A stretch of 37,187 nt of DNA from Candidatus Ozemibacteraceae bacterium (GTDB lineage: Bacteria; Muiribacteriota; Ozemobacteria; Ozemobacterales; Ozemobacteraceae), in contig CALLCO010000199.1 in assembly GCA_937998695.1 (NCBI GenBank), forward strand, positions 1 to 37,187, written 5' to 3'. The notes under the pieces are model-generated. The model saw only the letters and a list, made by a program, of their open reading frames with translations, did no database searches and was not told the origin of the DNA. The translations under genes were made by a program, and so were the position numbers. Below are positions 28,020 through 28,528 of this stretch, one piece after another. Each line of letters starts with the position of its first letter. Position 1 is the stretch's first letter.

Positions 28020-28029
28020 GGCGGACAAT

Positions 28030-28103
28030 GCGCCCATAGCTCAGCTGGATAGAGCGACAGCCTCCGGAGCTGTAGGCCAGAGGTTCGAATCCTCTTGGGC
28101 GCG
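28030..28103 (+). tRNA. tRNA-Arg (anticodon CCG)
   Basis: A full cloverleaf of 74 bases: acceptor GCGCCCA/TGGGCGC, D-stem GCTC/GAGC, anticodon stem ACAGC/GCTGT with loop CTCCGGA (anticodon CCG at 28064-28066), T-stem AGAGG/CCTCT with loop TTCGAAT, discriminator G. CCA is not encoded. It reads the Arg codon CGG, which is frequent in this GC-rich genome. A run of seven T (28104-28110) follows directly and may end transcription. Confidence 0.97.
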
Positions 28104-28145
28104 TTTTTTTCTGCCAATTTTTCGAGGCCCTAAATCAACAGCTTC

Positions 28146-28331
28146 ATGATCCTGGCGCTGTTCATACCCATGGTGGCTGACACCGAGGGCAACGTGGGCA
28201 GCCAATCGGCCACTGTTATCGTCCGGGCCTTGGCGGTACGCGAAGTCGCGTTCAAGGATATCGGAACGATCCTGTGGGAAGAATTTCAGATCGCATTGCT
28301 CCTGAGCGTCGTACTGGGCCTGCTCTCCTAG
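28146..28331 (+). pseudogene. Remnant of an MgtE magnesium transporter
   Basis: The 61-codon frame encodes only one or two membrane helices of MgtE: LALFIPMVADTEGNVGSQSAT, then VIVRALAVREV and a hydrophobic end (IALLLSVVLGLLS) before TAG. The GN-x-GSQ-x-T pattern lies in the pore region of MgtE. Full MgtE has about 450 residues with an N domain, CBS pair and five helices; everything else is missing here. The frame is closed by TAA at 28131 upstream, and no ribosome site is seen. It lies 42 bases after tRNA-Arg and 11 bases before a MITE-like element, so it is probably a leftover from deletion or integration at this tRNA. Confidence 0.75.
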
Positions 28332-28342
28332 GGAAAAGTGAT

Positions 28343-28462
28343 GAGCCTGTTGCATGAATCGGTTTTTTGCTCGTCGTGTACATAACGCCCCTGATCCGAT
28401 AGGCATCTCCGAATGGACGGTACACGAACATGGGCTGTTTTGGGCCTTCGCGCAACAGGCTC
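28343..28462. mobile_element. 120-bp MITE-like element with terminal inverted repeats and TGAT duplication
   Basis: The left end GAGCCTGTTGCATGAA (28343-28358) and the right end, read on the other strand, GAGCCTGTTGCGCGAA (28462-28447) match in 14 of 16 bases, including 11 consecutive at the tip. The element is flanked on both sides by TGAT (28339-28342 and 28463-28466), as expected for a 4-bp target duplication. An inner inverted repeat CGTGTA/TACACG (28375-28380, 28421-28426) adds fold-back symmetry. It has no coding capacity, so it would need a transposase in trans; a DDE transposase of an IS5- or IS701-like group is one possibility. Confidence 0.75.
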
Positions 28463-28528
28463 TGATGTTCCTTAAATGGAGCCCCGCAGACACCACCCAG
28501 GAACCGGAGGTGCGCTTCCAGGCAAGGC

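Follow-up and report, generated by a model that had tools for sequence, protein, structure and literature searches.

The 120-bp element at 28343–28462 of the window (the whole 37,187-nucleotide stretch of DNA that was analyzed) is very probably a MITE of the IS1182 family, and we infer its movement in trans by the transposase of an autonomous relative. This reading is built on its copies and their common boundaries, target duplications, an empty site in a relative, the ends of related insertion sequences (ISs) and the shared duplication length, all of which are observed. The element is short, carries no transposase gene and is bounded by terminal inverted repeats.

Structure of the element and its site in mgtE

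The features of the element and its surroundings are as follows.

28029–28104, + strand: tRNA-Arg(CCG); the order tRNA, mgtE, ankyrin-type gene is as in the relative G001
28134–28342, + strand: remnant of an mgtE pseudogene that starts near codon 310 of 459 and contains a TAG in frame; recognized by similarity to G001 mgtE
28339–28342, no strand: target site duplication TGAT, left copy; a single TGAT stands at the G001 empty site
28343–28462, + strand: MITE, 120 bp, in the family-consensus orientation with the ATGAATCGG end on the left; delimited by 64 own-genome copies with the same boundaries
28343–28358, + strand: left terminal inverted repeat GAGCCTGTTGCATGAA; the IS1182-family IS of G003 has the identical sequence at both of its tips
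28447–28462, − strand: right terminal inverted repeat TTCGCGCAACAGGCTC, matching the left repeat at 14/16 positions
28463–28466, no strand: target site duplication TGAT, right copy; a single TGAT stands at the G001 empty site

An earlier note had described a 120-bp element with TGAT on both sides and terminal repeats matching at 14 of 16 positions, and both coordinates and description prove exact: the 16-bp inverted ends at 28343–28358 and 28447–28462 agree at 14 of 16 positions. The 11-base tip GAGCCTGTTGC, searched with zero mismatches, occurs in the window only at these two ends. The absence of coding capacity, also claimed there, stands as well; neither a transposase nor a conserved gene lies within the 120 bp, and the open reading frames that cross it are mechanical only.

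We compared the insertion site with that of G001, a relative of the same genus in which tRNA-Arg, an intact mgtE (459 aa) and an ankyrin-type gene lie in the same order. When the window flanks are joined with one TGAT, they align to G001 mgtE across the junction (AAAAGTGAT-GTTCCT in the window, GAAAGTGATGTTCCT in G001, one TGAT). The element was therefore inserted into mgtE sequence, duplicating TGAT. The insertion point corresponds to GKV-MFL in the G001 protein, and the similarity runs 6 bp past the right TGAT (28467–28472) and then stops. The comparison with an empty site, which had been proposed as a check, thus gives a clear answer, since the intact mgtE of G001 has a single TGAT exactly at this point. 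The adjoining MgtE remnant is likewise real, showing 83% identity over 54 aa (tblastn) to the intact 459-aa relative and 80% identity over 214 bp at the DNA level. It has TAG where G001 has TGG.

Relative to G001, the window lacks about 1.17 kb of DNA that lies there between tRNA and mgtE codon 309, and at 28105–28342 this deletion joins the pseudogene to tRNA-Arg. The closeness of the tRNA to the element results from the same deletion; the tRNA is an incidental neighbor, with no role found for it. We ruled out the tRNA as an integration site, as it is intact and 234 bp separate its end from the left TGAT. Since mgtE is otherwise decayed, with deletions on both sides and a stop codon, the insertion would, judged from the sequence, have no evident host function.

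Copies and target sites in the host genome

The window's own genome (G000) is a draft of 4.53 Mb in 324 contigs, 91.8% complete. With the element as the query, 43 places in it match at E < 1e-3, each covering the whole element or almost the whole of it. The tip GAGCCTGTTGC occurs 127 times in the whole genome, against 2 occurrences of the reversed control pattern. By fetching the tip-bearing places, we delimited about 64 dispersed, near-identical copies, nearly all of 118–121 bp; further ends at 120-bp spacing, which the earlier note had suggested seeking, are thus abundant. Because about 64 recurrences have the same boundaries, the element is well beyond chance. Identity to the window copy ranges from 97% down to about 62%. 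The window copy groups closely with the copies at C278, C35:3792 and C61, which are 97% identical and have GGGCCTTCGC near the right end in common. So wide a spread of identities suggests that the family was amplified over a long time and not in a single event.

Individual loci show further arrangements. At C117:6101–6344, two copies stand head to tail with only TATA between them, and TATA is the left flank too; here one MITE was inserted at the very edge of another. Contigs C123 and C80 agree in the flank to the left and carry an almost identical MITE copy, directly followed by different DNA, and each then bears a second, different MITE. A strain variant, recombination at the repeat and an assembly misjoin are candidate readings of this divergence.

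The target duplications have a constant length. A perfect 4-bp direct repeat borders 28 of the 64 copies, and nine more have one with a single mismatch. When the right flanks were permuted among the copies in 2000 trials, the mean was 1.0 perfect 4-bp duplication and the maximum was 7. The remaining 27 copies lack a 4-bp duplication even with one mismatch allowed, which is ascribed to decay or rearrangement; three of these are flanked by direct repeats of 7, 5 and 5 bp (AATCTAT, GTACA and ATCTT). The duplicated 4 bp are A/T-rich (68–75% per position), and in the flanks C is weakly preferred at −1 and −3, with G symmetrically at the mirrored positions, giving CxC-[4 bp, A/T-rich]-GxG. Stem-loop pairing at the targets was not found, with 69 paired flank positions compared with 68.4 by permutation (p = 0.49), and therefore only the symmetric base preference is left. 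IS1272-like stem-loop targeting was ruled out by this permutation and by slid-centre controls. A preference for intergenic insertion was unsupported, as long open frames span 76% of the joined sites and 81% of random positions; this test is crude and carries little weight, because many frames are open in GC-rich DNA.

Partner insertion sequences and competing explanations

To characterize the partner, we compared the element with ISs in relatives. The search gave a 27-bp match in G003, of the same bacterial family, which leads to a 1,639-bp IS at C19:2219–3857. At 2219 and 3857 it bears inverted copies of GAGCCTGTTGCATGAA, so that its tips are 16/16 identical to the left end of the MITE, and it is flanked on both sides by AGTC, a 4-bp duplication. 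The IS encodes a 455-aa protein (counted from the first GTG) that matches DUF772 and DDE_Tnp_1 and scores 301.6 bits against the NCBIfam IS1182 model NF033551 (cut-off 270). The ends and the duplication length of the MITE are thus common to an autonomous IS. In G001, a 1,560-bp IS at C50:60204–61763 has the same left tip and encodes a 451-aa transposase, which is 58% identical to that of G003 and scores 288.2 bits against the same model and cut-off. Within C50:60057–61763, a MITE copy stands 27 bp from this full IS1182 element, with the left tip in the same orientation. The IS has no target duplication, and the adjoining MITE copy has no obvious one either. G002, of the same genus, has two IS left ends, identical at 331 of 335 bases; the contigs of both break off within the transposase gene, at the same base. 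Another of its contigs starts with a transposase-like 3′ end and right tip flanked by TTGT, as at one of the left ends, and these two parts would belong to one insertion. Among 24 genomes of the family, IS1182 relatives of at least 55% identity are confined to the genus and G003; more distant transposase relatives, with up to 53% identity, lie on plasmids of many genera.

In the window's own genome, there are only two IS1182 transposase fragments, 94.9% and 89.4% identical to the G001 transposase over 39 and 47 aa, respectively, and the whole G001 IS as a DNA query found nothing there beyond them. The earlier note had proposed a non-autonomous element cross-mobilized by a full-length DDE IS elsewhere in the genome, and had suggested a search for an IS with the same tips. 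That it is non-autonomous and bears the ends of a DDE IS is borne out by the copies, the 4-bp duplications, the empty site and the IS1182 ISs of relatives, with both tips found in G003 and the left tip in G001; the full-length IS did not appear in the own genome. Multi-copy ISs are often lost in draft assemblies, so this 324-contig, 92%-complete draft may lack an intact partner. The fragments lie beside two MITE copies (C95 and C244). At C95:25794–26071, the MITE directly abuts an internal transposase fragment and lacks a target duplication; it looks as though the remainder of the IS had been lost in an adjacent deletion.

According to the mechanism we favor, the MITE would keep only the ends that the transposase recognizes. 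An IS1182-family DDE transposase from an autonomous relative would bind these ends and move the 120-bp DNA, acting in trans, which is the step we infer. Joining to a 4-bp staggered cut would then duplicate 4 bp of the target. The window copy landed in an mgtE gene or pseudogene. It is possible, though rather unlikely, that the family has outlived or outgrown its partner, as there are about 64 copies while the IS1182 transposase genes visible in this species are all fragments. In that case, the MITE may hold sub-terminal transposase sites in its interior and so be preferred to the IS as a substrate.

Mobilization by another DDE family with similar tips, such as an IS5/IS1031-like family with GAG ends, would make the IS1182 tip match a convergence. 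GAG-type ends are also present in some IS5 subgroups, and the own genome has several PF01609 hits, partly from other families. However, none of the fetched own-genome PF01609 loci has the tips within one mismatch, which also removes them as partner candidates, and the G003 element combines 16/16 tips with the same 4-bp duplication length. We consider this explanation improbable. A repeat kept for host function (REP/BIME-like or a hairpin RNA), and not as a transposon copy, is slightly less probable still. The MITE consensus can be folded into one long hairpin, and the interior of the 120-bp element contains the short complementary segments TCGTGTAC and GTACACGA, as such a repeat might; yet DNA folding reached a z-score of only −2.6, and an 11-bp stem already comes from the terminal repeats by themselves. 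Rfam gave no match besides the tRNA, and a non-coding RNA reading was dropped on this result. REPs do not show target duplications, an exact empty site or tips identical to those of an IS. The duplications and the empty site argue against host function as the origin, and a later regulatory role for some copies is possible. Finally, it is scarcely credible that the element belongs to no mobile family and is just what is left of one local IS copy, as a solo remnant or by internal deletion, since the transposase fragments beside two MITE copies are outweighed by 64 dispersed, same-length copies with independent target duplications. The IS1182-family MITE thus stays the preferred reading.

Origin, distribution and relation to known systems

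The MITEs of G001 and G002 have the same length as those of the own genome and are diverged (71–73% identical), with an interior in common. This interior has no visible similarity to the interiors of known ISs, and similarity between MITE and IS is confined to about 16–27 bp at the tips. Since the interior is common to the MITEs of the genus and not to known ISs, the MITE has been in the genus for a long time. With similarity limited to the tips, an origin by simple internal deletion of the known G001, G002 or G003 ISs would seem unsupported. A 285-bp element in G002 (C183:13029–13313) has the ends of the MITE, with matches of 26 and 41 bp, around a different interior; it is a second, longer MITE type.

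We also searched more widely with an exact pattern in which two ends of 16 bases, 14 of them specified in each, are separated by 74–104 bases. Among 84,980 species genomes, a set that may omit the own genome, it occurs only in the Candidatus Riflebacteria record JAAYVD010000019.1. The pattern has no match in IMG/VR viral contigs, and viral carriage was ruled out on that search.

The closest described counterparts are the IS1182-family MITEs of Methanosarcina acetivorans with the partner ISMac2, which are non-coding, 160 bp long and present in 14 copies, with 26-bp inverted repeats and 4-bp direct repeats (Kamoun et al. 2013, PMC3852290, Table 4). The present family is likened to them by description and not by sequence: both are non-coding, have 4-bp direct repeats and have an IS1182-family partner, whereas the present MITEs are 120 bp long, with 16-bp ends and about 64 copies, in a bacterial genus of Candidatus Riflebacteria. 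Within the same bacterial family, the G003 IS shares the tips GAGCCTGTTGCATGAA and the 4-bp target duplication with the MITE, and the G001 IS shares the left tip; both ISs differ from it in their length of 1.56–1.64 kb, their transposase gene and little or no similarity inside the tips. IS1272 of Staphylococcus belongs to the same transposase family as the MITE partner by the classification in PMC5678879, where it is reported to replace stem-loop targets. The present MITE differs, as it makes 4-bp duplications and its targets show no stem-loop pairing.

IS1182-partnered MITEs with 4-bp duplications are thus already known. The present family adds one more, which has a higher copy number and a different host group, and it opens no new class of element. 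It provides a base-resolved example of MITE amplification in the uncultured phylum Candidatus Riflebacteria, one for which the family of the partner, the length of the duplication and an empty site are all established. In the annotation of these genomes, many of the short repeats and some of the broken genes are accordingly to be read as MITE insertions.
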